Assembly: GCA_021772075.1 (NCBI GenBank)
Contig: JAETNQ010000008.1
Span: 1-64,000, forward strand
Direction of reading: 5' to 3'
DNA: 64,000 bases
Origin: Lachnospiraceae bacterium
GTDB lineage: Bacteria > Bacillota > Clostridia > Lachnospirales > Lachnospiraceae
Shown here: positions 7,213 to 30,713 of the stretch, in pieces
Layout: every line of letters starts with the position of its first letter
Numbering within the stretch: the stretch's first letter is position 1
Program-made: the position numbers and the translations under genes
Notes under the pieces: generated by a model
The model's database searches: none
What the model saw: the letters and a program-made list of their open reading frames with translations, nothing else
Told to the model about the DNA's origin: nothing

Positions 7213-7219
7213 TGGCTGA

Positions 7220-10506: not shown

Positions 10507-11418
10507 ATGAAAAAGGGAAAACGTTTTCTTAACAAGGGGCAGAAGGGAAATAAAATAAAGCGCACACTGGTCAGCAGGGTGGATCCGATTAACAAGTTCA
10601 GGCATTGGTATATGGGAGGCATCAGTCTTTTCCGCAGCTTTTTCCGTGTCCATGCGGCGAAGCAGACGATTGCCATTATCCTTTTTATTCTGTCGGCGGC
10701 ATTTATTATGGCGGCGTTTTATACAAACGCCGGGGAATTTGTAGTGAAGGTGGACAGGGAAATGGCCAGGGACGGGTTTTACCTTTCGGAGATTCCTAAT
10801 TTTGATGAAAGGCTGATTACGCTTCATGCGGACGCGTTGGTGGACGCTACGAATGTGAGCATATACAATATTGACGAGGATGTGATGGATATTGACGGGG
10901 AGCATCACAGCGATGATGTGTTTGCCTATACATTTTATGTGAAAAACCTGACAGGGGAAACTAAAGATTACAGATATACGCTGTTTATGAGAAATAAAAC
11001 GCAGGGGATCGAAGAGGCGGCCTGGATCATGTTATTTCATAATGGAAAACAGGAGATTTTTGCAAAGGCCAACCAAGAAGGGCATCCCGAATGCCAGTAT
11101 TCGGAATTCGAGTTTCCGTTTCAGGAATATGCGCTGCATCCGGAAAAGCAGCAGACAATGATCTCCAACAGAAATCCGGGATATATTACACAGGAGGTTA
11201 TCGATTATCATGATTTTGACAGCCTGGACGGCATCTATCAGCTGCAGACAGTTCCTTTTGCCTCCGAAAAAACGATTTGCACCGGGTTAAGGCCGGATTT
11301 TGAACATGATGGGATGGATAAATTTACAGTGGTCATCTGGCTGGAGGGAGAAGACCCGGAATGCGTGGATGCTATTATCGGAGGAGAAATAGAATTGGCG
11401 ATGAGTTTTACTTATTAA
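10507..11418 (+). CDS. Membrane-anchored extracellular subunit 1
   Basis: Unrecognised protein of 303 residues. A basic N-terminal tail of about 55 residues is followed by one hydrophobic segment (IAIILFILSAAFIMAAFYTNAGEF), then an extracytoplasmic domain rich in beta-strand pattern (YTFYVKNLTGETKDYRYTLFM). The layout, and its position in an operon with SipW, resemble SipW-processed TasA/CalY-type subunits, although the tail is unusually long and basic and the classic TYAWFT-like motif is missing. The ribosome binding site GGGAGGAG precedes ATG 10507. It may be the membrane-proximal base of the structure; this is inference. Confidence 0.5.
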   Translation: MKKGKRFLNKGQKGNKIKRTLVSRVDPINKFRHWYMGGISLFRSFFRVHAAKQTIAIILFILSAAFIMAAFYTNAGEFVVKVDREMARDGFYLSEIPNFDERLITLHADALVDATNVSIYNIDEDVMDIDGEHHSDDVFAYTFYVKNLTGETKDYRYTLFMRNKTQGIEEAAWIMLFHNGKQEIFAKANQEGHPECQYSEFEFPFQEYALHPEKQQTMISNRNPGYITQEVIDYHDFDSLDGIYQLQTVPFASEKTICTGLRPDFEHDGMDKFTVVIWLEGEDPECVDAIIGGEIELAMSFTY

Positions 11419-11469
11419 AGGAAACAGGGAAATAGGATAGAGAAGTGAAGAAGAGGGACGGAGGAGGCA

Positions 11470-12447
11470 ATGGGAAAGCGGATGACGGGGAAAGAAGAGA
11501 AGACAAAAAAGAAAAAAACAGAAGAGACCAGAGGGGAAGGCGCGGAAACGGAAGAAAGTAAGGAAAAACAGGGACTGAAGGCCAGACTGCTGATGTGTCT
11601 GCTATATCTTGCAGTATTGTCCACCGCGACTTATGCATGGTTTACGATGAATAACAAACCAAAAGTGCTGAATCTGGCGCTTTCGGCCGCAGCGGCAGGG
11701 GATCTGATGATCGCCGATGATCTGGGCGGAGGGCCGGGAGAGTACGATGAAGAGCTGGATCTGAAAGCGGCTACGCAAAAGTTTCCCATGGAAGAGGTAT
11801 TGCTGAACCCGGTGACGACTACGGACGGGCAGATGTTCTACGCGCCGGTATATACGGGAAAGGCAGTAAGCGATGTCAAAGAGATCACAGACCTGGATGA
11901 ACTGAACCAGCAATACGTATATGAGAAGACTTTTTATCTGAAAGCCGGGAGCTTGAAAAACAGCAAGGGAAAAAGGGTTTCCCAAGGAGCAATGAAGACT
12001 TATGAGATTATGTTGTTAGGACCTGAGCAGGCCGGGGAGGAAGTCAGCGGCTGCTGGGTGCGCCAGGCAGACGGGGCGGAGAGTACGGTGCCCGGAGATA
12101 CGGCGGCGAATTCTATCCGCATTTCTTTTGAAGTAGAGGGGCAGGAAATCGCCATATGGGAGCCGAACAGCGATAAGCACAACAGCGATACGGAGAAAGC
12201 CATCGATAACGTGAAAGATTCTTATGGGACATATAAAACGCTGCAGCAGACAAGCGGCGGGGATTTTGTAGGCGGCGAGGGCGGCAATTCGGAAAAGCTG
12301 TTTGAAATTGAGGAAGAGCAGGACGTGAAAGTGACGATGCGCGTCTGGATGGAAGGCACGGATGAAGATTGCACCAATTCCAATGAACTGGATGAAATCA
12401 TCGGAAACATACAATTTATTTCTTCGGAGGTAAAAAGCGGAAGATAG
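11470..12447 (+). CDS. SipW-type exported subunit 2
   Basis: A protein of 325 residues. A highly charged 35-residue N-terminus (Lys/Glu) precedes a hydrophobic signal segment ending STATYAWFTMNNKP. The AT-AWFT signature is typical of SipW-dependent TasA/camelysin-family signals, with cleavage expected just before or within it. The rest is an acidic, mostly beta extracellular domain that includes a Gly/Glu stretch and ends in VTMRVWMEGTDEDC. The closing motif resembles that of the subunit at 10507 (VVIWLEGEDPEC), so the two are probably related. GGAGG precedes the start. The gene is 51 nt after its neighbour and 44 nt before the AAA+ gene, consistent with one operon. Confidence 0.6.
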   Translation: MGKRMTGKEEKTKKKKTEETRGEGAETEESKEKQGLKARLLMCLLYLAVLSTATYAWFTMNNKPKVLNLALSAAAAGDLMIADDLGGGPGEYDEELDLKAATQKFPMEEVLLNPVTTTDGQMFYAPVYTGKAVSDVKEITDLDELNQQYVYEKTFYLKAGSLKNSKGKRVSQGAMKTYEIMLLGPEQAGEEVSGCWVRQADGAESTVPGDTAANSIRISFEVEGQEIAIWEPNSDKHNSDTEKAIDNVKDSYGTYKTLQQTSGGDFVGGEGGNSEKLFEIEEEQDVKVTMRVWMEGTDEDCTNSNELDEIIGNIQFISSEVKSGR

Positions 12448-12491
12448 GGCAGCGCTTGGGCAAAAGGGTATAGCGGGAATGGGAGAGAAGG

Positions 12492-14099
12492 ATGAACGCA
12501 TTTTTTTATTACTTTTATAATTTTATGAGGAGTATCTTCGGGCATATCTGGAACGTACTGGTTGCGATCAAGGATGCCATTTTTGGAATTTTTGATATTC
12601 GTTATTATATAGAGCTGTTCAATACCTACCGTGATGATTTGTCCCCCTTGGGATGGATAGCGGCGATCATTGTACATATTCTGCTGCTTATGCTGCTCGC
12701 CTTGTTTGTATTTCTGGTATATAAAGGGTTGAAAGTAGTTTTCCGCTTTAAGGTTCCTGTGGTGGAATATGAAAAAATGAAAGATGAAGTAGTGACGTTG
12801 AAACGGGAGATTATGAAAGCGAATTATGAAAAGGATAAGATCCTTGCGATGAAAATATCGGAGCTGGGCATGGAGGTGAATGCGGATCTTCTGGAGACCC
12901 CGAATGAGCTTCTGGAAAAGGGGATGGCTGAGGAAAATACGGATACTGCTGCGGAGAAGGAAGAAATAACGGCGGAAGAGGAAGAGGCGGAGGTCATCGA
13001 AACGAAGGAAAGGCGTTTTCCAAGGCTTTCCGCAGTGGATCTGTATTATGCGGATCCCGAATATACGCCGCCGGTCTATAATAATACGATCAGTTTGGAG
13101 GAGATATGCATTAATTTCCGTAATTATGCGGCAAGCAAGCTTGGGCTGTATTATGAACTGGAAGTGATGAAACAGGCGTTTGCCTCTTTTGGAGCGGCCA
13201 AAATGCTAATTCTGCAGGGAATATCAGGAACGGGCAAGACTTCCCTTCCTTATGCTTTCGGGCAGTATATCCAGAATCCGAGCGTGATCTGTTCGGTGCA
13301 GCCTTCCTGGAGGGACAGGACGGAGCTGTTTGGCTATTACAATGATTTTACGAAAAAATATACGGAAACGGATTTCCTGAAAACCTTATACGAGGCGCAT
13401 TATTATGAAGATCCAAGAATCGTGATTCTGGACGAGATGAATATCGCAAGGGTGGAATATTACTTTGCGGAAATGCTTTCCATCCTGGAACTGCCAAGGG
13501 AGGAAGAGCGGTTTGTCACGGTGGTATCCAATACGGCGGCAAACGATCCGGCTCTGATGAAAGAAGGGAAGATATGGATCCCGAATAATGTGTGGTATGT
13601 GGGAACGATCAATAACGATGATTCCACCTTTGCGGTGGCGGATAAGGTGTATGACCGTGCGATCCCGATCGACCTGGACGACCGTGCCGAATTCTTTGAA
13701 GCGCCGGATACGGAACCGTTGCGCTTAAGTTATAAACATCTGGAAGAGTTATATGAGGAGGCAAAGAAAAAATATCCGATATCGGAAGAAAGCCTGATCC
13801 TCCTTGATAAATTGGATAAGTACCTGATCGAGCATTTCCGCCTTACATTTGGTAACAGGATTATGCGCCAGCTAAAGGAATTTGTTCCCTGCTATGTGGC
13901 CTGCGGCGGCACGGAGATTGACGGGATTGACTTTATGTTTTCCAAGAAAATCCTGCGCAAGTTTGAATCCCTGGGCTTAGGATTTATCAGGGATGAGCTG
14001 GACGGCCTGATTGTATATCTGAATCGCCAGTTCGGCGGGGAGAATATGAAAATCAGCAAGGCATATCTGGCAAGGCTGAAGAGGATGAGCGCGGGATAA
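12492..14099 (+). CDS. Membrane-anchored McrB-like AAA+ ATPase
   Basis: A protein of 535 residues. The N-terminus has a hydrophobic segment at about 55-78 (preceded by a weaker one), then a coiled coil and a Glu-rich linker to about residue 175. The C-terminal half is an AAA+ module of the McrB/MoxR-like group: Walker A GISGTGKTS (243-251), Walker B with the McrB-style LDEMNIARVEYYF, and sensor 1 YVGTINNDDSTFAVADKVYDRA. McrB itself is a GTPase of restriction complexes; here no DNA-recognition domain or nuclease is visible, and the neighbours are secreted proteins. An energy-using assembly or secretion role at the membrane is therefore inferred. The next gene starts directly after its stop, suggesting that the two proteins form a complex. 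Confidence 0.75.
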   Translation: MNAFFYYFYNFMRSIFGHIWNVLVAIKDAIFGIFDIRYYIELFNTYRDDLSPLGWIAAIIVHILLLMLLALFVFLVYKGLKVVFRFKVPVVEYEKMKDEVVTLKREIMKANYEKDKILAMKISELGMEVNADLLETPNELLEKGMAEENTDTAAEKEEITAEEEEAEVIETKERRFPRLSAVDLYYADPEYTPPVYNNTISLEEICINFRNYAASKLGLYYELEVMKQAFASFGAAKMLILQGISGTGKTSLPYAFGQYIQNPSVICSVQPSWRDRTELFGYYNDFTKKYTETDFLKTLYEAHYYEDPRIVILDEMNIARVEYYFAEMLSILELPREEERFVTVVSNTAANDPALMKEGKIWIPNNVWYVGTINNDDSTFAVADKVYDRAIPIDLDDRAEFFEAPDTEPLRLSYKHLEELYEEAKKKYPISEESLILLDKLDKYLIEHFRLTFGNRIMRQLKEFVPCYVACGGTEIDGIDFMFSKKILRKFESLGLGFIRDELDGLIVYLNRQFGGENMKISKAYLARLKRMSAG

Positions 14100-15431
14100 A
14101 TGGAGAAGATTATGGAGAACACGGAAGGCATCGGCTATGTGCATGAGACATACCGGAACATGAACCGGGAGGATGTGCAGGAACAGCTGAAAGACGACAA
14201 ATTTTATAATTACTTTTATAATCTGCTGGAAAATGCGAGCAACTATTGCAAGTTTTCCAATGCGAAACTTGTGAAGAGCATCGACGAGGAATGGGTCAGA
14301 GAGATTGAAGAGGCGATGCCGTCCCTGCATTATGTCATTGTCCATCCGAGGAAATTTATTGAAGAGGAGAGGGAAGTCGTGAATGTGGCTATGGCGCGGA
14401 ACATTACGACGGAATCGATCCGGCATTTGCTGCAGCACAGCAATCTGATTGACGAATACAAGGAAGATGGGACGGTAATTCCCAGCAGGATCCTCAATGT
14501 ATATAAAGAAGAGAGTATTAATATTTATGAGAACCGTTTTATCTGTACGTTGATGGCAGAGCTTCAATATTTTGTGAATAAGCGTTTTAATGTGATTTTT
14601 GAAGCCAGCAAGGATGAGATCGGAACTTTTTTCGAGATGGAATCCCGTGTGGACAATTATACGGAGGTCATAGAGTATAATCTGTCTGTAAAAATACAGG
14701 AGAAGCAGACGGATGTGAACAACGAGGAAGAAAACAACAATATTTTTGCCCGTATTATAAAAATACACCAGCAGGTGAACATGCTGGCGGCGACCGAGTT
14801 TATCGCCATGATGAAACGGTATCCGGCGGTCGTCCATCCAATCGTAAAGACGAATGTGATCGGAAAAAACAAGGACTATAAGGCATGCCATAAACTGTGG
14901 AATTTTATCCATTCTTATAACAGGGTCGGATATAAAGTAAATATCGTAAAGCAGGAGCCGACGATATCAAGGGAGTTTGAACGGGATATTTATAATACGG
15001 TGATCAGGGACTATGCCATGCTCCATCATAATATGAAGTTTGCGAATAATATTGATATTGACCGGCCGAAGAAGGAACGGGAGATGGAAGCAAAGCAGAT
15101 CCGGCAGATGCTGGAGGAAATGGTGCTGAAAACCAATCTGAGCGATGCAGCCCTGAAAAAGCTGGTAGTGAAAGAACTGGCCGATCTGCAGATGAAACGG
15201 AAAGCGGAGCTGGCGGAACTGGAACGCATCCAGAGGCAGAAGCGGAAGGAAATCCGCAAGAACCGGATGCAGCAGGAGGCGGGAGAACTGACGCTGGAAG
15301 ATGTGGACAACGAAAAAAATATTGTATTGCCCGGGGAAGAAGATAAAAAGAGCAAGACAAAGGCAAAGAAGCAGTCGTTGCGGCAAAGGAGACAGGAGAG
15401 GGCCGCAAAACGTAAAGCGGGCGGCAAATGA
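14100..15431 (+). CDS. DUF2357-like partner of the AAA+ ATPase
   Basis: A protein of 443 residues that resembles DUF2357 proteins, which accompany McrB-like ATPases in the way McrC does. The section VYKEESINIYENRFICTLM matches the conserved core of that family as I know it. No PD-(D/E)XK nuclease motif is apparent. The C-terminal ~130 residues form a long coiled coil that becomes very Lys/Arg-rich (RQRRQERAAKRKAGGK), unusual for McrC. No signal or membrane segment is seen, so it is cytoplasmic and probably bound to the anchored ATPase. Its ATG abuts the previous stop; ATG 14112, behind GGAGA, is an alternative start. It overlaps the SipW gene by 4 nt. Confidence 0.55.
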   Translation: MEKIMENTEGIGYVHETYRNMNREDVQEQLKDDKFYNYFYNLLENASNYCKFSNAKLVKSIDEEWVREIEEAMPSLHYVIVHPRKFIEEEREVVNVAMARNITTESIRHLLQHSNLIDEYKEDGTVIPSRILNVYKEESINIYENRFICTLMAELQYFVNKRFNVIFEASKDEIGTFFEMESRVDNYTEVIEYNLSVKIQEKQTDVNNEEENNNIFARIIKIHQQVNMLAATEFIAMMKRYPAVVHPIVKTNVIGKNKDYKACHKLWNFIHSYNRVGYKVNIVKQEPTISREFERDIYNTVIRDYAMLHHNMKFANNIDIDRPKKEREMEAKQIRQMLEEMVLKTNLSDAALKKLVVKELADLQMKRKAELAELERIQRQKRKEIRKNRMQQEAGELTLEDVDNEKNIVLPGEEDKKSKTKAKKQSLRQRRQERAAKRKAGGK

Positions 15432-16000
15432 TGAAGAAATTATTGGCAGGAACAGGAAATCTCATATTTATAGCGGTGACATTGTACCTTTGCTATTTTA
15501 TCGTATCGGCTGCATATAACAGGACGCCGGCATTTTTCGGATACCGCATGCTGCGCGTGGTCACAGACAGTATGGAGCCTGTATTTGCGGGCGGAGATTG
15601 CATCATTATTAAAGAGGCAGGGGAAGAAGAATTGGCGATAGGGGATATTGTGACTTTTGTCTCAGGGGATCCTTCCCTGGAAGGGGCATATAATACCCAT
15701 CGCATTTATGATATTGCCAGGGATTATACGACGGGGGAGGCCGTTTATTATACGAAAGGGGACGGCAATACATGGACGGATGAATATACCGTTTCGAGAG
15801 AGGATATTGTCGGGAAATATGTCGGCAAGATTCCTTATGGGGAGGCATTGACCCTTTTTTTGGATAAGCTGGCGGAAAAGAATTTTTATTTTGCTGCAAT
15901 TATTTTACCGATCGTTTTATGCCTGACCTCCTGCGTAGTGCAGCTGGTAAAGGAAATCAGGCGGGCGGCGCGGAAAAGAGGAGAAGATGAAGAGGTTTAA
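15428..16000 (+). CDS. sipW: Signal peptidase I, SipW type
   Basis: Membrane-bound signal peptidase of 190 residues. An N-terminal transmembrane segment (LIFIAVTLYLCYFIVSAAY) is followed by the nucleophile S48 in TDSMEPVF and H91 in NTHRIYD. A Ser-His arrangement in place of Ser-Lys marks the SipW/ER-type group. A second membrane segment (FAAIILPIVLCLTSCVV) is near the C-terminus. SipW enzymes process TasA/camelysin-type matrix subunits, and several genes here encode candidate substrates. The ATGA overlap with the DUF2357-like gene and the 14-nt overlap with the next subunit gene indicate translational coupling. Confidence 0.9.
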   Translation: MMKKLLAGTGNLIFIAVTLYLCYFIVSAAYNRTPAFFGYRMLRVVTDSMEPVFAGGDCIIIKEAGEEELAIGDIVTFVSGDPSLEGAYNTHRIYDIARDYTTGEAVYYTKGDGNTWTDEYTVSREDIVGKYVGKIPYGEALTLFLDKLAEKNFYFAAIILPIVLCLTSCVVQLVKEIRRAARKRGEDEEV

Positions 16001-16781
16001 GAGGTTATTAACTTTACTTCAGGAAAAGATTATACTTTCTTTTGTGATGTGCCTGTTGCTCTGCGCGGTGCTTTTTTCGGCGACGACGGCATGGTATGCG
16101 GCCAATAATACGGCGGTGATGCATGGCATGGAGATGGGGACAGGAGGGATCGGAGGGCTGAAGGTAGCGATAGAACCGGGAGGGCCGGATATTATGATGC
16201 TGCCGGAAGTGAACCGGGAAGGGATTCCGGTGATTCCGGTTAAGCTGACAGAGCTGAACAATGTAAAAGAGCAAATGATCGCGCCGGGATCATATGGCCC
16301 GATGACTTTCTATATTACTTCGCTGGGAGAGACGGTGACAGGATATTCGATAAAAGTCAAGCTTTCTTACCGGGAAGAAGATGGGGCCGGCGACAAATTG
16401 CCGCCGGAGCAGAGAGAAAGAATACGGGACTTGATGGAAAAGCATATCAGCGTGTATACGAAAATGGAGACGGTTTCTTCCGAAAGCGGGCAAGGAAGAT
16501 GGGGAAGATTTTCGGATCCGCTGGAGTATTACACGGATGCGGAGGCAGGGGACGGTACTGCGGCTACCGGTGAATTGGTTTTTAATACGGAAGTAAAAGC
16601 GGAGATCTATTGGGTTTGGAATTATGAATATACCGATATACCGGGCAACGGGAATCTGCCTGAGGAGGAGCTGCAGGAGAAGATCCGGGAATATGATGAA
16701 GAGGATACAATGCTTGGGAACTACATAGACCATATCTGGTTTGACGTATATATCACAGGGCAGACGGAAGAGGAGAGATAA
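15987..16781 (+). CDS. SipW-type exported subunit 3
   Basis: A protein of 264 residues with a short basic N-terminus, a hydrophobic segment (FVMCLLLCAVLFSA) and the SipW-substrate-like signature TTAWYAANNTAVMHGMEMG. The mature part is beta-rich and acidic, with the pattern APGSYGPMTFYITSLGETVTGYSIKVK that is typical of TasA/camelysin-like domains (an N-terminal strand followed by a statement of polymer-type repeats). The start codon lies inside the end of sipW behind GAGGAG. Its stop overlaps the start of a 17-codon mini-ORF (TAATG). A filament or matrix subunit role is inferred. Confidence 0.6.
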   Translation: MKRFKRLLTLLQEKIILSFVMCLLLCAVLFSATTAWYAANNTAVMHGMEMGTGGIGGLKVAIEPGGPDIMMLPEVNREGIPVIPVKLTELNNVKEQMIAPGSYGPMTFYITSLGETVTGYSIKVKLSYREEDGAGDKLPPEQRERIRDLMEKHISVYTKMETVSSESGQGRWGRFSDPLEYYTDAEAGDGTAATGELVFNTEVKAEIYWVWNYEYTDIPGNGNLPEEELQEKIREYDEEDTMLGNYIDHIWFDVYITGQTEEER

Positions 16782-16834
16782 TGCAGCATTGGAAAAGCCA
16801 TGGAAAGATGGCAGGAAAGCGGGGAGCGGGATGA
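16781..16834 (+). CDS. 17-codon mini-ORF bridging two subunit genes
   Basis: MQHWKSHGKMAGKRGAG is opened by an ATG that overlaps the previous stop (TAATG) and has AGGAG 5 nt before it. Its TGA overlaps the next gene's ATG (ATGA, 16831-16834). The double overlap makes it a good translational bridge between subunit 3 and subunit 4. The peptide is basic and has no recognisable function. Confidence 0.35.
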   Translation: MQHWKSHGKMAGKRGAG

Positions 16835-17571
16835 AAATGAAAAAGAAAATAATGATAATCATAATCCTGACAGTGCTTTGCCTGGCGGCAGGGGGCGGAA
16901 CCCTTGCATGGTACCTCAGGGAAGATGTAAAACAGGCGCAGACTACAGGAGCGGAAATCATGGCTCCTTATAATTTATACCTGATGAATCCGAATGCCAT
17001 AGATTCCCTGAAGTTTGCAGTAGGAAACCTGCATCCGGGGGAAGTGAAGCATACGGTCATCTGCGTATCCAACCGGGTGCCGGAAAATTATGACGGGGAA
17101 GACAATATGTCGGAGCTGGTAAAGGATTCAGAGTTTAACTATGATCTGCAGCTCGTGCATACGGAAAACCTGGCGGTGGACTATGCGGTATATCCGTTGG
17201 AGAGGAAGCAGATACCGGCAGACGGGCGGCTTCCTGCCGGAGCGATCTGCATGGAGGGGGATGACCCGGCTTATAAAACTTATTATTGGATGAAAACGGC
17301 ATCTCCCATTACAGGAAGCGATAATACGGAAAAGATGCGGAAGGAAGTATTCGGACAGGCGGATATGGCAGATGTCGTAAATGCGGGACAGTATCTTTTT
17401 TTTGATGACAGCAGCATGAAGCTGGCTTACAACAACGGAACTTATGAATACGATTATTATCTGATCGAAGTAACATGGCAGGATATCAGTGACTTTGACG
17501 CATATAAGAAAGAAACGGATCTGGTTTATGTAGTGGTAAATGCAAAACAGCCAAGGCCGACAGAGAGCTAG
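16831..17571 (+). CDS. SipW-type exported subunit 4
   Basis: A protein of 246 residues. The signal MKMKKKIMIIIILTVLCLAAGGGTLAWYL ends in a LAWYL motif similar to SipW-substrate signals. The mature domain includes LHPGEVKHTVICVSNRV, resembling the DLKPGD-type strand common in camelysin-like proteins, and an acidic C-terminus (DYYLIEVTWQDISDF). The track start 16741 lies in the preceding gene; ATG 16831 with GGGGAGCGGG is preferred. It is followed 18 nt later by subunit 5. Confidence 0.55.
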   Translation: MKMKKKIMIIIILTVLCLAAGGGTLAWYLREDVKQAQTTGAEIMAPYNLYLMNPNAIDSLKFAVGNLHPGEVKHTVICVSNRVPENYDGEDNMSELVKDSEFNYDLQLVHTENLAVDYAVYPLERKQIPADGRLPAGAICMEGDDPAYKTYYWMKTASPITGSDNTEKMRKEVFGQADMADVVNAGQYLFFDDSSMKLAYNNGTYEYDYYLIEVTWQDISDFDAYKKETDLVYVVVNAKQPRPTES

Positions 17572-17589
17572 TGAGTATGGGGGCAGGCA

Positions 17590-18732
17590 ATGGAGTGGAA
17601 TGATCGGAAAAAGACAGGAAAGATAATGATGCTTGTAGAAAGATGGAAGCAGCGGGGAGCGGGAAGCAGGAAAAAGGCAGTGCTGATACTGGCGGGCTGC
17701 CTGATACTGGCCGGCGCTTCCCTTACCGTGTATTCCAAATATTATAAAACACGATATGAAAAAGGAATGGCGATTGCTTCCGGATTTTATTTCTGCAGTA
17801 ATTATATGTATGAGGAAGAGGGACTTAATGATATTGAAGATATTGAGGAACTGACGAGGAGAAGCGGAGGAAAGCTGGTGCATGAGGATCTGGTGAACCG
17901 GCTGATGGTGGCGGTCAGCAATAAGCCATGGGCTGCCGGAAACAGCTATACTTTTGATGTGGAAGTACGCAATCATATAAATCAGCTTTTATATAACGAT
18001 AAAGATTTGAATGTTGCTTATATGGTAGAGTTTACTTTGCTGGATGGGCCGGACGGGGCGGATTACAGCGTAGGAAAAACAGTAAATGGGGCGGATGTCG
18101 GGAATGATATTCCTCTGAACAACGGCAATACAATAAAAAAGGCTAGTTTTCAGGGGACGCTGGAGGGCGGCAGACTTACATGGGAAAATTATGTGCTGCG
18201 GGTAAAGCTTGGCAGCGGACAAACGGCGGATTCCTATAAACCTGCCCGCGTATTGATGATGGCATATCCTGTGGAACCGGCTTTTCTGGAGGATACAAAG
18301 AAAATAGCCGGAATTATCAAGGCAGAATACAATATAACGGAAATGGAGATTACCGACCAGAAGTTTACAATAGAGGATGAATTAAAAGAAGACAGCTGGC
18401 AGGAGCGGGTGAAAAAAGAATCGGCTTTGGTTTACCAGCTGAAAACGACGGGAAATTATTTTGTGCAGGAAACGGATAACATGATGCAAAAGATACGGAT
18501 CAAATGGAATCCGAATATATTCTCCCTGAATAAGAATGACAGATATCTGAATCATGCGGAGGGTACGCGGCTTGTGGAATACGACGGGGATGCAGGCGTT
18601 ATGGTAATTGAAACCGCGCCGTATTCTTCTATCAAATTTGTTTTTTTTAAAAAGGAAGATTTTGATGCGGAGATACAGAATATGACGTTGGATGAATTTA
18701 AAAATACGATTCAGGCAGAAAAGGTAGAATAA
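17590..18732 (+). CDS. Exported surface subunit 5
   Basis: A protein of 380 residues with a basic N-terminus (about 25 residues) and a hydrophobic signal AVLILAGCLILAGASLTVYSKYYKT. The following YEKGMAIASGFYFCSNYM resembles the segment seen after SipW-type signals in Lachnospiraceae surface proteins that I know (ASxFYFxSD). The middle carries a beta domain with LDGPDGADYSVG, and the end DEFKNTIQAEKVE is acidic. It ends 29 nt before the giant protein gene and may connect that protein to the fibre; this is inference. Confidence 0.5.
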   Translation: MEWNDRKKTGKIMMLVERWKQRGAGSRKKAVLILAGCLILAGASLTVYSKYYKTRYEKGMAIASGFYFCSNYMYEEEGLNDIEDIEELTRRSGGKLVHEDLVNRLMVAVSNKPWAAGNSYTFDVEVRNHINQLLYNDKDLNVAYMVEFTLLDGPDGADYSVGKTVNGADVGNDIPLNNGNTIKKASFQGTLEGGRLTWENYVLRVKLGSGQTADSYKPARVLMMAYPVEPAFLEDTKKIAGIIKAEYNITEMEITDQKFTIEDELKEDSWQERVKKESALVYQLKTTGNYFVQETDNMMQKIRIKWNPNIFSLNKNDRYLNHAEGTRLVEYDGDAGVMVIETAPYSSIKFVFFKKEDFDAEIQNMTLDEFKNTIQAEKVE

Positions 18733-18761
18733 GACGGAATTTCATAGGGCAGGTGAAGGAA

Positions 18762-21700: not shown

Positions 21701-24700
21701 GGATTATTTATTGAATAAGCCTTCCTATGCGCTGGGCGAATCCGGTATTTATGCCCTGAACCGCAATGACAAGGGAAATGAAGACGGAGAGCGGTTTACC
21801 GGCAAGCTGGCCGGCGAAGGGAATCCGGTTATCGATTTGGGGGACTGCATTACTTATCAATCCTATCTTTCTTTATTTCCCTGTGCGGGAGAGGGAGTGG
21901 AATTCCGGAATCTGACGGTGAAAAGGAATATCCGGTACGCGAGAGATGCGGCTGCAGGGCTGGCGGCATATACTTCCGGCAACGTTACGGCAGATGGGGT
22001 GGATATGCAGGTTTCATTGACTGGCAGCACTGTTGACTCCCCTTACTTGTATGGAGGCATGTTTGCCGATTACCAGGCAAAAGGAGCCGTAACGCTGAGC
22101 GTAACCGGAAGCCGGATTGGAGGAAGCTTCGAAATCAACCAGAATACAGGCGATGACAGCAAAAAACAGTATCTGGGAGGATTGCTTGCAAAATATACGG
22201 CTGATACAACGGAGACTCCGATAATCCAGATAAACGGGCTGGAGATCGCAGCGCCGATTACATCTTCCAGCGGTTCGGTCAGCGGGATGATTACGCAGAT
22301 CAATACGGAGGATGCCAACCAAGATAAAACCAGGGACAGGGTAATGCTGGATATGCAGAAGATCACAGTAACAGGAGGCACCAAAATCAGCATAAGCCAT
22401 AGAGGGGAATCGGGAGGATTCCTCGGATGGAAATGGTTTGGAATAGGCCCCTGTGCCGGAAATTATTCCATCAATGAACTGACAGTAGGAGACGGCGGTA
22501 CGGCAGCAAGCGGTCCCTCCTATTATACGGATGGCGGATACGGAGGGTTGGTGCATACGGTGACGGGCAGAATCCAGTTAAAGGATGTCCATATTCGGAA
22601 TGCTTCTTTCCGTGCAAGACCCGAAATCAGCAACCATAATGGTCTGCTGTTCCATAACGGCCATAATGCCTTGATAGAGCTGGAGGAATATGAGATTGCC
22701 GACCAGGGAGTAGGTGTGAAACCGGCTGACATAAATTATGCCGCGAATAGGGGGAAAGTCAGCGTAACAGGACAAACGGCTTATTTCGGCGAGGTTGTGG
22801 GCAGTAATATGGGGGACAGCAAAGACAGGAGAAGCTACACGAACGGGGGGATTGTCAATATTATCAGCCCGGCTTTTCAGAATGATTTTACTGCCTTTAG
22901 CGGTCATCTGTTTTCATTAAATGATGGGGCGGGTTCCAATTCCAATCAGACACGGTATTATTATAACTTGTTTGGAACTTCATTGTCAGGAGAAGGTACT
23001 TTTTTGCCTGAAAATAGAAAGCTGGATAAAAACAGCCTGGTGATTACGGATGCGGATCAGATGATGATCTGGCATCTGTCCCAGTATATGAATGATTCGA
23101 TCCGAAGATATTTAAAGCCTTATTTCCGGGGAGAAGCGGTGCCAGATAAAAATACGGATGTGACGATAAAAGGAACGATTGATTTAAACAGAAAGGGTTA
23201 TTATCCGACGCCGGTGCAGGATTGCACGGTAAAAGGGGAAGATTCCGCAACCGTTGTTTTTTACGCCGATGAACTGGCGGAGGTAAACGGAACGATAGCA
23301 GAACAAGGCGGGAAGGGAGAGGGAAGAAAAGAAAATTACATGCTTCACAGCGGCCTGCTGATCAGCCCGAAGGGAGGAATGACGGTTCAGGGGGATAAGA
23401 ATTATCTCACTCTGAAAGGAAAAGTTACCCGTCTTTTTGAGGATTCGGGTGCACTATTTGTGATGTCGATCTGTGGAACGAATACGATATGCAAAATCCG
23501 CCTGGAGGATCTGTATCTGAATAATTTTGGAGGAGCGGCGCACGGATACGGCCTTCTGATAGGGACAATCGGGGACGGATCCGATATAAATATCAGCTGG
23601 CTGGAAACGAAGGGATACCGTGATGCCCCCGGTAAGGCGCGGCAGACATATGCGGCTTCGGCTCTGATCGGAAGGGTTGGCAACGGATCTGCCAAGGATT
23701 TGAAGCTGGATTTTACGAATATTAAGATGGGGGGAAAGAACCCGGAGCGGCAGCTTGCCGATAAGAGCGAAGGAATTTTCAGGTGGGCGATTTTTATCGA
23801 TTTCCACGAGTATACGGATAATACTCAGGAGAACAAGGGACGCGTCAGGTATTTGTTTACGGAAGAGGCTTATAAAGGGCTGGATATGGCGGATACCAGA
23901 AACAGTACGCGCGATCCTTTCGGCCAAGGTATTTTTGGAGATAATAATTATAAATCAATAGGGGAATATGTCACGATAGGCAAGGAGCTGAAGAATGGAT
24001 TTGAGTATTGGAATAAAGATGGGGAAGTAAAGCAGGAAGATATAGGGACGATTAACTGGGATGAATATCTGCCATATGTGTGTACGGCTACCCATGCATC
24101 GAATAAGGCCATCCAGGTCAACCCGAAAAACGTTTCGATTGACAAAGGCTGCGGAACTTATGAGGATCCTTATCAAATCACAAGTGCGAAACAGCTTTTG
24201 GCGCTGTCTTATTACCTCATGAACGGGGAGGGCCAGCAGTATTTGGAAAACTGGCAGATCAGAAAATCGGGAGACAAAGAAAATCCAACTGCAGACGGAA
24301 TCTGCACGAAAAGCCATACGGCTGATACTTTGAAAACCTATGGACAGGACGATTTCCCTACCCGGGAAGAACTTCGGAAAGCTTACTATATGATTACGGA
24401 TGATATTGACTTCTCCGCGCTGAAGGCTTCCGGCGACGCGCCCGTGGCACAGAGCTTTGTCGGCCTTGGAACAACACAATATCCGTTTTCGGGAGTGATT
24501 GTGGGTCAAAAGAGCGATGGAAGCATCCCTAAGGTTATCCTGCCTTATAAAAGAAAGGGAACTACCAGCAATTATTTCGGACTGGTACAGTATGCAAAAG
24601 GGGCGGTAATAAAAAATCTCGAGATTGTCAGCCCGGAAGTGCCGACGGACGATAATGACCTGCTGACAAATGTAGTGCGCGTAAGCAATAGCGGCAGTGC

Positions 24701-27700
24701 GGTGATGGGCTGTATTCTGGGCGGCGATAATATAATTGATAATGTAAAGGTGAGAACCCAGATAGCGGTGAATCCCGACACAGGCGGGATGAATGCCGCG
24801 GTAGGAGGATATGCCGGAACGGTGCAGCAAGGCTCGCTTATACTCCGCAATGTAAAGGCGGATTGTTTAAGCGGGTTCCGGTGGGGGCTGTTAAGCGGAA
24901 ACAATGAAAACATGGATGGGGTTCCATGGTCGGACAATTATCCGTTTGTGTCAGGTGCAGTAGGGAAGGTGGAAAATGGCTTTGTCCTTTACGAAGGAAG
25001 TGGTGTTTCTGCCAATGAAAAAATACTTTCCCATGATGCCAAAGCGATTCCGGGTATTTACAGCCATGGCGTCCTGCCCTTTTCTTATACTTATGATGTG
25101 ATTACCGCATCGGGAATGGAGGGGGAGAAAAATAGCATATCTGTGAAATCCGACGGAGGAAATTTCACCTGTGATATTGCCGATGGGGCGCAGCTCCAGC
25201 TTGTGTCCATGGCGATTAATTCGGATTCTTTTTCCGTGTATTACGGCGGAGGAGGGTATGATAAGCAGGCGGCATGCCGGAAGGCGAAATACGATGAAGT
25301 CGGGAATGTAACGGTTCCTACGGCCGAGTATGTAAATGCGACGGAAAAGGACGATGACGTTTATTGGTATCCATATATTTACCAGTATTTTATTTTTGAC
25401 GGATTCAGTGCGGAAAGCAGCGATGCCAGTGGTACGGGCTTCTATAAAACATTGGAGAGTTATGGAACCGGCGGCAAAAGAAGCAAGCTGAACGCGGTGA
25501 CAGGCGACGTAAGCGCATCGATGACTTATCGATTGAGGGATGATGTTTCAAAAGAAATTGATTATGATCTGTCTGTCTATCAAAGAGGATTCCGCGGCTT
25601 GGGGGCGACATACAGAGTGTTCGACACAGATGACGTTACGGTAAACGTAACTCCAAACAAGACTGGTGTATACTCTGATTTTAGAGCAAATTTTGACGGC
25701 GGCGGCGCAACCATCAAGGCGGAAATGATCAATGATTATGCGAAAGGGATCCATACGGCGGCTTTGTTTAATGACCTAGTGGATACGAGTGCGCGAAATA
25801 GCTATTTTATCAGGAATTTTACAGTGACAGGCACCTTTCAAAGCAGTAATTCCACGGAGGGAAATAATGCGTCAAACTATGCAGCGGATCGTGCGGCGGC
25901 CGTCGTAGGGATGATGCGCCGGCCATGGGAAATTAGCGGTATAACCGCCAAAAATGTGAATGTATGGAGCAAAGGGCGGGCTGCCGGTATCGTGGCGTGG
26001 ATCAATCTTCCTGCGGATACGAGGAGTAATCCAAGTGCAAAAAACTATGCCTTTACGAACTGTAAGGTGTTATCGGTAAAAGAAGGCAGTGCGGAGAAGG
26101 GAACGGTTATTCATACGCTGGGAGGAAGCAGCGGCGGTATCGTGGGAACTATGGCTACCTGGCATAATAATGATCTGGACGGATATAGTCTTACTTTGGA
26201 AAACTGCAAGGTTTTAGGGGAGCAGAAGAGTGGAAGCCCGGCATATTATGTATACATTGAAAATGAGGGTATGCAGGATGGATTGGGCGGTGGCGACCAA
26301 GAAAGAAATGGAAGAGGAAGAAGCGGCGGCATGGTCGGTCATGTGGGAAAGAACCATGAGAAAGATATTAATATCAGAACGAGAATTGCTTGCCGGGTAA
26401 TAGACAGCATAAGTACGGATGAGGATGTACAATATGTATTTATAAATGGAAGCGACAGCACAGGAGGAGTCATCGGGGAATATTACGGATGGCGCAGGGA
26501 CGAAAGCGATCTGTGCATGGAAGTGGCCAATATTGCGGTATCGGACAGCGTAATAGAGAGCAAAAACAGGAACGAGACAGACCAGGGCTCCTTTGGCGTG
26601 GGCGGTATTATCGGCAAACTACAAAGGGAAGCAACCTGTGAGATCAAGTATACCAATGTAGTAAATACAGATGTACGCTCCGTATATGGAGGCATAGAAA
26701 ATAACGTAAGTATTACGAATATTGCTCCCAAAGGAGACCTGAACGCCGGAGGCGTTATCGGGTATTGCTACTATAAGAGCAGGGTTACGCTCGATCATGT
26801 ACAAGTAAGAGGCGCAATGAAAGACGGGAAACCGCAATATGAGATTTCTTCCCGTTTGTCCAATGCGGGAGGAATGATAGGCGCATGCTGGGACGGGCAG
26901 GAGGATGCGGAAGCCAGCAAATATGTGACGATAAAAGACAGCGCAGTATCGGGCATGAATATATCGTCGGACAGCCGCAGCCTGGCAGACAGGGAAGGGG
27001 ATAAAGCATCCGGTATTTCTGCCGGCGCGGCCGGCGGAGTCATCGGGCGGGCCTCGGCGATAGAAGCGCTTACAGTCCGGGATGTCTCGGTGGAAAATTG
27101 TGTCCTGAGAAGCGGGCGGGGCGCGGCGGGAGGCATGATAGGAAACGCGGTTTCCCGTCTGGGTTCGCTGCTGCAGAATATAAGCGTGGAATCCTGTAAG
27201 ATTGGGAGCAACGGCGGTTTATCGACCGTGGATGCGGGCGGTGTGTTTGGACGGCTGGGTGTTCTTGACAATAAAGGAAGCCAAGGGCTGAAAGGGAACC
27301 TTAAGATAGAACAATGCGATATCTATGGGAATAATGCCGGTGGCCTTGCCGGAAGCGCAGACGAAAAACAGCAGATTGGAAATGTATGGTCCGATGGGAC
27401 TACCGGACACAAAATAACAGTAAATGGAAACTCGGTGCTGGGATATTATGCCGGAGGCGTTTTTGGATCCGACAGAAGCGAGGAGACCTGCTTTGCTGAT
27501 GTTGAAATCAGCGGCAATACTATCGCTGGGGCGGGGAATGGTGCTAACAGCAGTGCGGCGGGAGGCTTTTGCGGCAGAAAAGAAAGCCTGGCGGGTGAGA
27601 ACAGCAGTCATAATCTGAATGATGTTACGGTGGAGAATAATCGTATTTTCAGTACGCATATGACAGACAGCAAAAAGCAGAGCGCGGGAGGAATGTTCGG

Positions 27701-30700
27701 CAATCTGGTTTTGGAAGAGGATGTTTATTCCTATCAGGCGGCGGTAAGAGACAATGCGATTGGTTTTTGCGATGTGGCAAATAACCGGGCTGTGCAGCAG
27801 ATTTTTGATGCAGGGCTGACGGGACAGATGAATGCTATGGAAGCCGCCATGGGAGCGATGAAAGGGCAGACAGTCAAATTGTGGGATGGAAGCGCTTTTG
27901 TTTCCCTTCCTTCCAGCCTTAAGGAGGAGGAGATCGGCAAATATGCAGCTTATTACGGAAATCTGGCAGGAACTTATAGCGGAAGCGGCCATGCGTATTT
28001 CCTGAAGCCGACAGTGGCTTATGCGGATAAAAATGCAACACGGCCTGTTGTGGACGTGGGGAATACGGAGTCCGGGGCTGCATCCGGTAATACGATGCTT
28101 TCTTCTCCTTATGCTTATAGAAGGAACATACATGTTATTTATTTTGAACCGGATGTGAGCGGAAATAATACAGCAGCCAGGTTATGGGCAAGTACGCCGA
28201 TGGGGGAGGAGGGATTGTTCTCTAAAGTAAATGCGGATGCCAAGCTGGAAGAATATGCGAAAGTGATGAACCCTGCAACGGCAAAAGCATCGGAACTGCT
28301 GGATGCTTACCGTTTGAATATTGTGAACGACTCAGGAAGCAGCGTATCCGACATTTACAAAAATATATATAAAGATGAAAACGGATATCTGCCCAAAATA
28401 TCCATAGAGGAAAATGGAGCGGAAGTAGAGCTTCCTATGATTATTCTGGATACCCAGTATGGAACAGTAGACCAGTTGATGGGCGGTGTGCTGGCGGCCC
28501 TGACAGGGGCAGGCGGCATCCATAACAGCGGGACTGTCCATAAAGACAGCATCTACGACCAGGGCATGAATGAGATCATAGGCATATCGGTGGAACCGAT
28601 GAAAGTAGAAAATGGTACGATTCAGAACGGGGATGCCGGCAGAACGGGAAGCATTAAATACTATAATAGGGAAAACGGGCATGACAGGGTGGAAATCTTC
28701 GATAACACCAAGGAACCTGACGAGGAGGATGCGGATGGAAAAGGCACTACTTTTTCCATGCTTACGATTACTTACCGGCAGAAAGATTACGCGGCAATTG
28801 ACGGAGGCAGCGCAGTAGGAGGGGAAATAAAATTGCAAATCCCTGTTTTTGTGGTGGAGAGATTGACGATCGATACCTATCTGAAGATGGCCGAAGGCGA
28901 AGTGTATAATGCGGATAAGGCAAAAGCAGAAGGGGCGGCGAGAAATCCCCTATTGGCGAATGACAGTACCTATACTTTATATATGGAATATATATACGGC
29001 AGCGCCAGGGATAAGTACAGTACGGATGATAAACCGATCTGTATCGATAAAGCATTGGGGATCACTTATACGGATGAAAAGGGAAATATAGTTCCGACAA
29101 AGCTGTGGCCGGGTACGAGACTGACAATGATCGATGTATGCGATTCCAACAAGGTATATTATTATACGGTCCGGGAGGAGGATACGGTCATTAAATTTGA
29201 GCAGTTCAAAACCGACCCCAATGACCCTGCTTCTGAGACATACAAAAATAAGCCGATCCATGGTGAGAACGGCCTGGATGTATATAAGGACGGAAACGGT
29301 TTCCCCGCGGAGGACAGGGATGAGCCGTATATGGATGTCGGCGTAGAGCGGTTCCTTATTATTGTGGATACGGCTTTGGTGGATGAGGAATTGAAACTGA
29401 CAACGCGGAATGTCCGTGATTACCATGTAACACCGGAGCTGAGCGATGATATTGCAAAGAGAACCACATTAACGGAACATAACAAGCTGCAGGTAACTAT
29501 GCAGCCGGGCCTTACAATTGATTTTGTTTCAAAGGGAACGGAGGATATCACGGATATTGCAGGTATTATACAGGATGGCGCGGAGGTAGAGATAGATGCA
29601 ACCTTCCAGATTGCCGGAGAAAAAGCGTATTGGCTGAGAGCCTTAAATAACCAGACGACTACGATAGACAGCGCGAACCATAATAAATATCTGGAAGTGG
29701 GAATTTATTTTACGGATACCAATGGCAATCGGGTAAGGCTTCCGGATAATACGAATGTAACGGTGAATGGAAAACGCGTACAGCCATGGGAGGAGGAAAT
29801 CAAGGAAGAAGAGAATCTGGGCGCATACGTGAACCGGACGGAGGTATATTTTTATAAGGATGGAAGGATTATGTTCCCGCTGGATAAGTTGAAAGAGATT
29901 GTTCAGAAGGATATGGATATGCATGGAACAAACAATTTTAGCGGCATAACCAGCGAAAAACTGAACATCTTACTTAATTTTGCGAATGCAGACCTTTCTG
30001 CTTATACAGATAACAGATATATAGTGAATCTGGAGCTGCTGAGGATTGAAGACGCAAATTATCCTGCAGGCGGAGAAATCATAGATATTTATGAAAAATC
30101 GCTGATCGCAAGAAGGCGGACGGATCTGGCCTGCGCGTTGGAAACCAGGGATTTGATGGAGCTTGGCATTAATACATACCATAACCAGACGCCTATGCCC
30201 CATAACATTAACTTTGATTTTAAGCTGGATTTTAACGGGATATTGAGCGATACCAGCCATAGCATGAACCAGCAGATAGCGGATAAATATTATACGGTGA
30301 CCTACCATATCATGGAAAAGACAAACAAGAACGGGACACCGGAATATAAACCGTACACCGGAAGCCAGCTTTCCTTGGCGCTGGCGGCTCCTCCTTCTTC
30401 CGATATGCAGAAAGGGCTTCAGAAAGGAAGTTCGTCGACCGGTGAATTTGCAAATTCCGTTTACATCACTTATAAGTATAATCTGCGGGAAATTGAAAAA
30501 GGAACGGGGGATGCCGGAAGAGGGGTAATTACGAGGGATTTGGTGCTGACAGTAAAGGATGCGGCAAAGATGGATTTGTCAAATTATAAGATTATGGCAT
30601 CCGTCTTGGTATCCGACAATCCGCCGGGAGATATTGAAATGGATGTGAATCCGACGCTCAGCGATTTCTTCGTATTTACGATAGCAAAGCTGAAGACGGA

Positions 30701-30713
30701 TCTGGATTATTAA
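18762..30713 (+). CDS. Giant secreted GLUG-repeat surface protein (~3,980 aa)
   Basis: Signal peptide with probable cleavage after SIYSVLAA, then a Pro/Gly/Glu repeat stalk of twelve 11-residue units (GGNGSESQPPE type, residues ~63-194). A segment with four CxxC/CxxxC-like ribbons follows (YRCVFCLR, PVCEDCGLA, YRCAICGEE). From about residue 350 to 3,100 there are dozens of GLUG-like units (SAGGLVGRTEG, AGGVIGLF, GGIVGDLKGS), the pattern of right-handed beta-helix adhesins. The last ~900 residues are mixed beta domains without repeats. No LPXTG motif, S-layer-homology domain or C-terminal membrane anchor is seen, so attachment must be by another route. I start it at ATG 18762 behind AGGTGA; the track start is a GTG. 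It ends the surface operon, and a terminator follows. Confidence 0.8.
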   Translation: MKRYFGKKSYKKIGSMIAVFLVLAIFLNNESIYSVLAAESAPKAAADNSGSQGTEGETAPPEGGSGSESQPPEGGSGSESQPPEGGNGSESQPPEGGNGSESQPPEGGNGNENQPPEGGDGNESQPPEGGNGSESQPPEGGNGNENQPPEGGDGNESQPPEGGNGSESQPPEGGGGNENQPPEGGNGNENQPPEEGDGTGDKLPEDEVIPEKPLPEELPADGSLDGEIIDDADGEEGIPSCAEEREHEYEVILGEDGSVTGYRCVFCLREISEETLEAEGASLHAHIWNRAEGEIIPVCEDCGLARLDCDGEDGYGIHIFELIQEEGKPDKYRCAICGEEKEFLDEWDMTAELFAELMGVSLYAFEYNGEPSDLPTTADELKAYSGKTLMVEKLADLMALQKLSSESDFDGYTVQLVFQRGDSGTTNTWDLRSLKGDFNGLGSEEYPFKGVLTSYYDAKSFNFQTATPMLNYVAAGAEISNLQINADITGDGSSPIGAIASHVVSDQGGTVTISDIFLSGTISNPGGAAGGFFGEVVNASAKEPIKIDYKKGDGSELGISVGADVSGGSAGGLVGRTEGKVEVYKTNAFPTGAVSGTQYAGMLVGSMEAGGTLFADGSDEEWNVNVMGTGTSGGLVGRIGKGTLCRTQGNEKELILAGKVEGGHAGGLVGECADTEVRMDHVAVKADVTALTGNAGGVIGLFTESASGTGNANAPDEDWHLLHHIDIIGNIRGVTNIGGIVGDLKGSNVRIGLPGEADNFECMEVSGNISADSQGAAAGGMIGTAEGEFIEVYHATVTGGIDTAGTIGGVVGKVGNAVVKVRNAKVGAALDPQADGQIQGGIFGDILPGSMAALDGEIDVEGLKMNHASLLRGHIAGKQEEALVYFEENCSYGKPEGKDWVDNIGSYGGVYRNGIWGEGGNTPLISYAGKNVTGAVYNSGSGWLLDSEADIMRLAIMLNTEGRFAGNCFGGTAKAELLTADYLLNKPSYALGESGIYALNRNDKGNEDGERFTGKLAGEGNPVIDLGDCITYQSYLSLFPCAGEGVEFRNLTVKRNIRYARDAAAGLAAYTSGNVTADGVDMQVSLTGSTVDSPYLYGGMFADYQAKGAVTLSVTGSRIGGSFEINQNTGDDSKKQYLGGLLAKYTADTTETPIIQINGLEIAAPITSSSGSVSGMITQINTEDANQDKTRDRVMLDMQKITVTGGTKISISHRGESGGFLGWKWFGIGPCAGNYSINELTVGDGGTAASGPSYYTDGGYGGLVHTVTGRIQLKDVHIRNASFRARPEISNHNGLLFHNGHNALIELEEYEIADQGVGVKPADINYAANRGKVSVTGQTAYFGEVVGSNMGDSKDRRSYTNGGIVNIISPAFQNDFTAFSGHLFSLNDGAGSNSNQTRYYYNLFGTSLSGEGTFLPENRKLDKNSLVITDADQMMIWHLSQYMNDSIRRYLKPYFRGEAVPDKNTDVTIKGTIDLNRKGYYPTPVQDCTVKGEDSATVVFYADELAEVNGTIAEQGGKGEGRKENYMLHSGLLISPKGGMTVQGDKNYLTLKGKVTRLFEDSGALFVMSICGTNTICKIRLEDLYLNNFGGAAHGYGLLIGTIGDGSDINISWLETKGYRDAPGKARQTYAASALIGRVGNGSAKDLKLDFTNIKMGGKNPERQLADKSEGIFRWAIFIDFHEYTDNTQENKGRVRYLFTEEAYKGLDMADTRNSTRDPFGQGIFGDNNYKSIGEYVTIGKELKNGFEYWNKDGEVKQEDIGTINWDEYLPYVCTATHASNKAIQVNPKNVSIDKGCGTYEDPYQITSAKQLLALSYYLMNGEGQQYLENWQIRKSGDKENPTADGICTKSHTADTLKTYGQDDFPTREELRKAYYMITDDIDFSALKASGDAPVAQSFVGLGTTQYPFSGVIVGQKSDGSIPKVILPYKRKGTTSNYFGLVQYAKGAVIKNLEIVSPEVPTDDNDLLTNVVRVSNSGSAVMGCILGGDNIIDNVKVRTQIAVNPDTGGMNAAVGGYAGTVQQGSLILRNVKADCLSGFRWGLLSGNNENMDGVPWSDNYPFVSGAVGKVENGFVLYEGSGVSANEKILSHDAKAIPGIYSHGVLPFSYTYDVITASGMEGEKNSISVKSDGGNFTCDIADGAQLQLVSMAINSDSFSVYYGGGGYDKQAACRKAKYDEVGNVTVPTAEYVNATEKDDDVYWYPYIYQYFIFDGFSAESSDASGTGFYKTLESYGTGGKRSKLNAVTGDVSASMTYRLRDDVSKEIDYDLSVYQRGFRGLGATYRVFDTDDVTVNVTPNKTGVYSDFRANFDGGGATIKAEMINDYAKGIHTAALFNDLVDTSARNSYFIRNFTVTGTFQSSNSTEGNNASNYAADRAAAVVGMMRRPWEISGITAKNVNVWSKGRAAGIVAWINLPADTRSNPSAKNYAFTNCKVLSVKEGSAEKGTVIHTLGGSSGGIVGTMATWHNNDLDGYSLTLENCKVLGEQKSGSPAYYVYIENEGMQDGLGGGDQERNGRGRSGGMVGHVGKNHEKDINIRTRIACRVIDSISTDEDVQYVFINGSDSTGGVIGEYYGWRRDESDLCMEVANIAVSDSVIESKNRNETDQGSFGVGGIIGKLQREATCEIKYTNVVNTDVRSVYGGIENNVSITNIAPKGDLNAGGVIGYCYYKSRVTLDHVQVRGAMKDGKPQYEISSRLSNAGGMIGACWDGQEDAEASKYVTIKDSAVSGMNISSDSRSLADREGDKASGISAGAAGGVIGRASAIEALTVRDVSVENCVLRSGRGAAGGMIGNAVSRLGSLLQNISVESCKIGSNGGLSTVDAGGVFGRLGVLDNKGSQGLKGNLKIEQCDIYGNNAGGLAGSADEKQQIGNVWSDGTTGHKITVNGNSVLGYYAGGVFGSDRSEETCFADVEISGNTIAGAGNGANSSAAGGFCGRKESLAGENSSHNLNDVTVENNRIFSTHMTDSKKQSAGGMFGNLVLEEDVYSYQAAVRDNAIGFCDVANNRAVQQIFDAGLTGQMNAMEAAMGAMKGQTVKLWDGSAFVSLPSSLKEEEIGKYAAYYGNLAGTYSGSGHAYFLKPTVAYADKNATRPVVDVGNTESGAASGNTMLSSPYAYRRNIHVIYFEPDVSGNNTAARLWASTPMGEEGLFSKVNADAKLEEYAKVMNPATAKASELLDAYRLNIVNDSGSSVSDIYKNIYKDENGYLPKISIEENGAEVELPMIILDTQYGTVDQLMGGVLAALTGAGGIHNSGTVHKDSIYDQGMNEIIGISVEPMKVENGTIQNGDAGRTGSIKYYNRENGHDRVEIFDNTKEPDEEDADGKGTTFSMLTITYRQKDYAAIDGGSAVGGEIKLQIPVFVVERLTIDTYLKMAEGEVYNADKAKAEGAARNPLLANDSTYTLYMEYIYGSARDKYSTDDKPICIDKALGITYTDEKGNIVPTKLWPGTRLTMIDVCDSNKVYYYTVREEDTVIKFEQFKTDPNDPASETYKNKPIHGENGLDVYKDGNGFPAEDRDEPYMDVGVERFLIIVDTALVDEELKLTTRNVRDYHVTPELSDDIAKRTTLTEHNKLQVTMQPGLTIDFVSKGTEDITDIAGIIQDGAEVEIDATFQIAGEKAYWLRALNNQTTTIDSANHNKYLEVGIYFTDTNGNRVRLPDNTNVTVNGKRVQPWEEEIKEEENLGAYVNRTEVYFYKDGRIMFPLDKLKEIVQKDMDMHGTNNFSGITSEKLNILLNFANADLSAYTDNRYIVNLELLRIEDANYPAGGEIIDIYEKSLIARRRTDLACALETRDLMELGINTYHNQTPMPHNINFDFKLDFNGILSDTSHSMNQQIADKYYTVTYHIMEKTNKNGTPEYKPYTGSQLSLALAAPPSSDMQKGLQKGSSSTGEFANSVYITYKYNLREIEKGTGDAGRGVITRDLVLTVKDAAKMDLSNYKIMASVLVSDNPPGDIEMDVNPTLSDFFVFTIAKLKTDLDY
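18948..19343 (+). repeat. Twelve tandem 33-bp repeats (VNTR) in the giant gene
   Basis: Twelve in-frame 33-bp units encode GG(S/N/D/G)G(S/N)E(S/N)QPPE. Units 5-7 and 8-10 repeat the same order of variants (NGNEN, DGNES, NGSES), showing a higher-order duplication of a 99-bp block. Copy number is likely to vary between strains. The long alternative-frame ORFs here on both strands are by-products of the repeat. Confidence 0.9.

Follow-up and report, generated by a model that had tools for sequence, protein, structure and literature searches.

A conserved McrB-DUF2357-SipW gene unit of Lachnospiraceae, probably a regulated apparatus for surface-fibre assembly

Gene content and layout of the locus

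The window, a 64,000-nt stretch of Lachnospiraceae DNA from whose first letter all positions are counted, carries genes for five exported subunits (A-E), an McrB-like ATPase, a DUF2357 protein, a SipW-type signal peptidase and a giant repeat protein (Table 1). All of the genes that an earlier note had named at 10507-30713 were found, in a single direction on the plus strand and with intergenic gaps of -14 to 58 bp. The two gene contacts it described are exact: the ATPase and DUF2357 genes meet stop to start at 14099/14100 (gap 0), and the DUF2357 and SipW genes share an ATGA overlap at 15428 (gap -4). Its central observation, that an anchored McrB-type ATPase and a DUF2357-like partner share an operon with SipW, the exported subunits and the giant gene, also held. 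The unit is larger than that note had it, since an HD-GYP gene 58 bp 5′ of A belongs to it and is probably its first gene. The resulting ten-gene order is HD-GYP, A, B, ATPase, DUF2357, SipW, C, D, E, giant; directly beyond the giant gene, on the opposite strand, lies a GGDEF-EAL gene. The start of the HD-GYP gene was set at the first ATG of its ORF (9807-10448), and that of D is most likely the ATG at 16831 rather than the TTG at 16741, where the ORF opens.

Table 1. Genes of the unit and its immediate neighbour in the window.
Feature	Position	Strand	Basis
HD-GYP-type protein (c-di-GMP phosphodiesterase family)	9828..10448	+	Pfam HD_5, 3.5e-26
Subunit A, membrane-anchored exported beta-sandwich protein	10507..11418	+	AlphaFold pLDDT 84.3
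Subunit B, exported, TYAWF junction	11470..12447	+	Junction motif, W-x-E-G
Membrane-anchored NxD-type McrB-like AAA+ NTPase	12492..14099	+	Walker A/B, NND-D, hydrophobic segment at about 54-78
DUF2357 (McrC N-domain-like) protein, charged C-terminal tail	14100..15431	+	Pfam DUF2357, 2e-10; stop-start contact with ATPase
SipW-type signal peptidase	15428..16000	+	NCBIfam matches; Ser and His signatures
Subunit C, exported, TTAWY junction	15987..16781	+	Junction motif
Subunit D, exported, LAWY junction, putative TasA-like fold	16831..17571	+	AlphaFold pLDDT 85.8
Subunit E, exported, (A/S)KYY junction	17590..18732	+	Junction motif
Giant secreted repeat protein, 3,986 residues, ordinary Sec-type signal	18753..30713	+	Repeat motifs, conserved C-terminus
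GGDEF-EAL protein, IDNFG replacing DDFG	30806..32350	-	Pfam EAL, 1.5e-64; GGDEF, 2.6e-12

Promoter and terminator scans gave matches near chance level, and a promoter-like 11/12 match lies at 9640-9668, 5′ of the HD gene. No c-di-GMP riboswitch was found near the unit at Rfam's cut-offs. Elsewhere, the window holds a group II intron RNA (497-1116, minus strand; two Rfam matches) and a small biosynthetic-type cluster (3770-9552, plus strand) comprising radical SAM, PLP decarboxylase, carrier protein and AMP ligase genes and genes for two proteins without a Pfam match.

Each of the five subunits has one N-terminal hydrophobic helix, in line with the five exported subunits of the earlier note. 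An A-W-(F/Y) junction is present in B, C and D, a KYY junction in E and a less typical one in A; SipW may cleave the subunits whose junction resembles A-W-(F/Y). The junction motif of B recurs in 33 of 36 relatives, W-x-E-G is invariant in B and W-x-E-x-x-D-P-x-C is invariant in A. AlphaFold gave confident models of A and D. The model of A consists of a single N-terminal helix followed by strands, and its comparison with the PDB gave weak matches to various beta-sandwich proteins and none to TasA. For D, a structure search of 350,542 PDB chains returned the TasA fibre 8aur as the best match (probability 0.99, E 1.2e-3; the second-ranked match had 5.5e-2) with a low TM-score of 0.33, a modest match that supports a relationship of D to TasA. 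The expectation of TasA-type substrates thus found support in D and not in A. By sequence, none of the exported subunits matched TasA, and PDB profile searches with A, B, D and E gave no convincing match. A and B are homologous outside the signal region. Profile comparison at first linked all five subunits in a chain (A-B-C-D-E); with the signal/membrane region removed, only the A-B link persisted, so the claim of common homology was dropped.

The McrB-like nature of the ATPase was borne out by its Walker A (GISGTGKTS), Walker B (DEMN) and NND-D motifs; in Pfam, it matches AAA_5 weakly (1e-3). All three motifs are conserved in every SipW-associated ATPase that includes the region, and a hydrophobic segment near residues 50-78 is found in the window ATPase and its relatives. 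Charged, helical-looking regions occur in the McrB/McrC homologues, where a simple heptad test for coiled coils was not significant. The partner protein is recognized by Pfam's DUF2357 model, in line with the earlier note, and YENR is invariant in it and its relatives; a PDB profile search with it gave no convincing match. In a search for a PD-(D/E)xK nuclease, in which an inactivated fold could be missed, only DUF2357 was detected in P0004 and five homologues of up to 1,308 residues. The longest is encoded at L071:11532-15455 and has a long charged region and additional parts; the usual length is about 450 residues.

The SipW assignment agrees with matches to the NCBIfam models sigpep_I_arch (9.5e-25) and SipW (3e-23, below that model's curated cut-off) and with the S-M-E and H-R signatures. 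SM.P and H(R/K)(I/V) motifs are present in 30/30 SipW relatives. The gap between the DUF2357 and SipW genes is mostly -4 to +20, also in Bacilli.

Conservation of the unit and its giant protein

The trio of ATPase, DUF2357 and SipW occurs together in 49 stretches, across Lachnospiraceae and also in Erysipelotrichaceae/Bacilli assemblies. The earlier note had allowed that the association might be peculiar to this genome; its conservation in Lachnospiraceae and Bacilli assemblies rules this out. Apart from the window, 21 Lachnospiraceae loci have the same ten families on their gene maps, in the same order and on the same strand; identities between subunits fall to about 25%. The unit is present in dozens of species of gut bacteria. 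ATPase matches were obtained in 10 of 61 near relatives (the weak ones belonging to other proteins of McrB type), in 24 genomes of a 397-genome draw from the family (E 1e-40) and at 42 loci of the genome collection, Erysipelotrichaceae and other Bacilli included. A phylum-wide draw of 399 genomes at E 1e-60 matched only the window's own genome, indicating that the system is rare outside Lachnospiraceae and some Bacilli. More distant versions keep the ATPase, DUF2357 and SipW with changed subunit sets, and some have two SipW genes. At one locus, a prepilin-peptidase-like gene (L091:13255-13704; Peptidase_A24, 2.4e-16) lies directly 3′ of the second SipW.

Evolutionary distances correlate across seven gene families (Mantel r 0.67-0.93, p 0.001 each), and the gene trees are parallel, with 10-17 of 22 splits shared. 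This indicates that the unit was inherited together; by itself it does not prove interaction, and simple vertical inheritance would also give parallel trees.

The last gene of the unit encodes a protein of 2,846-4,135 residues in each of the ten extended loci, which come from ten genomes. The motif GG-hydrophobic-hydrophobic-G occurs 24 times in the window giant compared with 0.9 times in shuffled sequences, and 7-28 times in each of the ten giants, where about one or fewer would be expected. The earlier note had called this a giant GLUG protein. The size it gave stands. The Pfam GLUG model found no match at E 1 in the window giant, nor in two relatives, but a similar GG core is abundant. Eight of the ten giants share a near-identical C-terminus, D(F/Y)(F/Y)(V/I)FTxxxLKTD or one step off, and the position of this conserved stretch at the very end suggests that it may be a docking or strand-donating signal. 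A C-terminal LPxTG was not found in the ten giants. A pilin-like domain at the giant's C-terminus was considered and rejected, as no profile match to the subunits was obtained.

The constancy of the giant at the end of the unit, its conserved C-terminus and the lack of LPxTG would also fit an ATPase that mainly aids translocation or surface retention of the giant, with the TasA-like subunits serving as a short anchor or conduit and no long fibre being made. However, its ordinary Sec-type signal means that the giant should be exported by Sec/SecA, and the large proteins that accompany the trio differ in several distant variants. We consider this explanation rather doubtful.

Relationship to McrB systems and to c-di-GMP

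McrB proteins of one branch carry an NxD motif, after which D or E usually stands, and the main text of Bell et al. 2024 (PMC11090510) gives the name CoCoPALM to one NxD clade with a membrane/coiled-coil fusion and signal peptidase neighbours. The window ATPase has NxD rather than NxxD (NND-D), its hydrophobic segment would correspond to the N-terminal transmembrane fusion (FtsB-like) of that clade, and SipW accompanies the ATPase and DUF2357 genes in all 49 stretches. The unit is very probably a member of the CoCoPALM-type family. The earlier note did not recognise the system as described. Its kind is named rather than new, since the combination of NxD McrB, membrane/coiled-coil fusion and signal peptidase is what was called CoCoPALM in 2024; that name appears in one passage of the main text, which leaves the system uncharacterised, to be taken up in a later paper. 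No follow-up paper was found in the literature searched, which lay outside bioRxiv and most subscription journals. In L092 and L094, two McrB-like ATPases flank one DUF2357 gene, with no SipW within the stretch read.

Genes of c-di-GMP-type families flank the unit at almost all loci. The HD-GYP gene lies directly 5′ of A in relatives too, and the proteins encoded there carry HDxG (27/27) and HHExxDGxGYP (26/27). Downstream, 9 of 11 extended loci, among them the window, have a GGDEF-EAL gene 3′ of the giant gene; the two exceptions are L103, whose locus L051 has the GGDEF-EAL gene before the HD gene, and L107, where the contig ends. In the window and most relatives, IDNFG means that the complete EAL catalytic set, including DDFG, is absent. 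That this loss of the DDFG motif's second Asp is conserved speaks for a receptor more than for an enzyme, and the window protein is probably a c-di-GMP receptor or regulator of the unit.

Other lineages have different arrangements. A membrane EAL protein with complete motifs directly follows SipW in the Bacilli L070, L071 and L073, and a protein with a weaker EAL match does so in L075. In other Lachnospiraceae (L085, L086, L088 and L089), a degenerate EAL protein precedes A, and the HD protein of L084 matches EAL weakly. In two loci (L077:13970-16426 and L079:11112-13586), the gene after SipW, where other Bacilli have the EAL protein, encodes a membrane protein of about 820 residues that matches no Pfam family. 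Altogether, a c-di-GMP-type gene is present at 41 of 49 trio loci, a count that includes Pfam matches, HD genes that the gene caller had missed and genes in the extended flanks. By comparison, the window's own genome of 3.48 Mb has only 3 EAL and 13 HD_5 genes in all. That different families recur at the unit, in different positions, argues for a functional tie to c-di-GMP.

These neighbours bear on the proposal that the unit defends against phage. DUF2357 and McrB are restriction proteins, and the pair could still be an anti-phage module, with the exported subunits as an outer sensor or barrier that triggers it on phage attachment. The sporadic distribution in the family would suit this, as would a match of the ATPase core to the PADLOC candidate PDC-M26A (5e-38). 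However, PDC-M26A also matches NxD McrB cores without SipW, so the match is domain-level and was dropped as defence evidence. In addition, neither a nuclease nor another effector was found in any DUF2357 partner tested, the ten-gene order is conserved and the neighbours are c-di-GMP-type genes. A defence role of the unit is unlikely. In L076 (Paenibacillus), an NxD ATPase and a DUF2357 protein occur without SipW and without a membrane segment, and this pair looks like the other, defence-type branch.

A possible assembly platform compared with known systems

Taken together, these observations suggest that the unit probably encodes a regulated apparatus which builds a surface fibre. In the best reading, an NTP-driven, c-di-GMP-controlled membrane platform would assemble TasA-like fibres and display the giant. 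This reading draws on synteny in 21 loci, parallel trees, invariant catalytic motifs, the tight DUF2357-SipW gap, the TasA fibre as top match of D and the frequency of c-di-GMP-type genes at trio loci. It also draws on the assembly of TasA by donor-strand exchange (PMC9674648) and on BsaA, whose export and polymerisation depend on SipW, as a precedent for SipW-dependent polymers (PMC7395162). The energised assembly apparatus proposed in the earlier note is retained in so far as the trio is conserved and an assembly platform is the best reading; the energised role itself is something that we infer. More broadly, we give a probability of about 55% to an McrBC-derived machine that turned from nucleic-acid restriction to surface-protein assembly.

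We envisage that Sec would insert A-E as membrane-held precursors and that SipW would cleave those with an A-W-(F/Y)-like junction. The ATPase would form a ring on the inner face of the membrane, stimulated by DUF2357 as McrB is by McrC. Hydrolysis of NTP could then act across the membrane through the ATPase anchor, probably on membrane-held A, and drive or gate the release of TasA-like subunits and their polymerisation by strand exchange. The giant, which lacks a sortase signal, would be held by the fibre or form its tip through its conserved C-terminus, and the HD-GYP and EAL proteins would tie the process to c-di-GMP. As a whole, the sequence of events from hydrolysis onwards is evenly poised. 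Several findings weigh against it: the match of D to TasA is modest and A has none, homology outside the signal region could be demonstrated only between A and B, and no relationship of the giant's C-terminus to the subunits was detected.

The ATPase ring and DUF2357 might instead serve quality control, extracting misfolded or uncleaved subunits or spent signal peptides, with the fibre assembling passively like TasA. Extraction of proteins is common among AAA+ rings at membranes, and the coupling between the DUF2357 and SipW genes is tight. No energy input is needed for TasA and BsaA to polymerise (PMC9674648, PMC7395162), and no NTPase is known to take part, a point that also counts against the assembly platform. 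Yet the conserved unit has neither a protease domain nor a protease gene, and quality control by itself leaves the retention of the pair with the giant and the c-di-GMP genes unexplained. We regard it as a doubtful explanation. Returning to the assembly platform, its complete form, in which an McrB/DUF2357 motor acts on SipW-processed TasA-like subunits in an energised, sortase-independent and c-di-GMP-controlled fibre assembly that presents a giant adhesin, is offered tentatively. If true, this would be an energised sortase-independent route of Gram-positive assembly that has not been described before. It would also mean that gut bacteria had taken over a restriction motor to assemble surface fibres and that TasA-like fibres can be energised.

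Our working analogy is the platform of type IV pili and archaella, where a cytoplasmic NTPase powers assembly of membrane-held, peptidase-processed subunits. The NTPase and subunits are unrelated, however, and a leader-peptidase-like gene adjoins the unit in L091 only. With McrBC type IV restriction, the unit shares the McrB-type AAA+ core and the McrC N-domain (DUF2357). In contrast to McrBC, it has NxD for NxxD, a membrane anchor replacing the DNA-reading domain, no nuclease found in the window partner and an operon of surface proteins. As in B. subtilis tapA-sipW-tasA and C. perfringens sipW-bsaA, a SipW-type peptidase adjoins exported subunits, and D may have a TasA-like fold; an NTPase, DUF2357, a giant protein and c-di-GMP genes are not reported there. 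CoCoPALM and the unit have in common an NxD McrB-like NTPase whose N-terminus is of the membrane/helical kind, a signal peptidase gene and a DUF2357 partner in which no nuclease was detected. TasA-like subunits, a giant protein and c-di-GMP genes are absent from its account in the main text (PMC11090510). CoCoPALM was named on genome context, and the papers found report no substrate for it. The present locus supplies candidate substrates, namely five exported subunits, of which one may be TasA-like, and a giant surface protein. It also supplies a regulatory link through its c-di-GMP genes, whose families differ between lineages. A category that had a name but no content thereby becomes directly testable.
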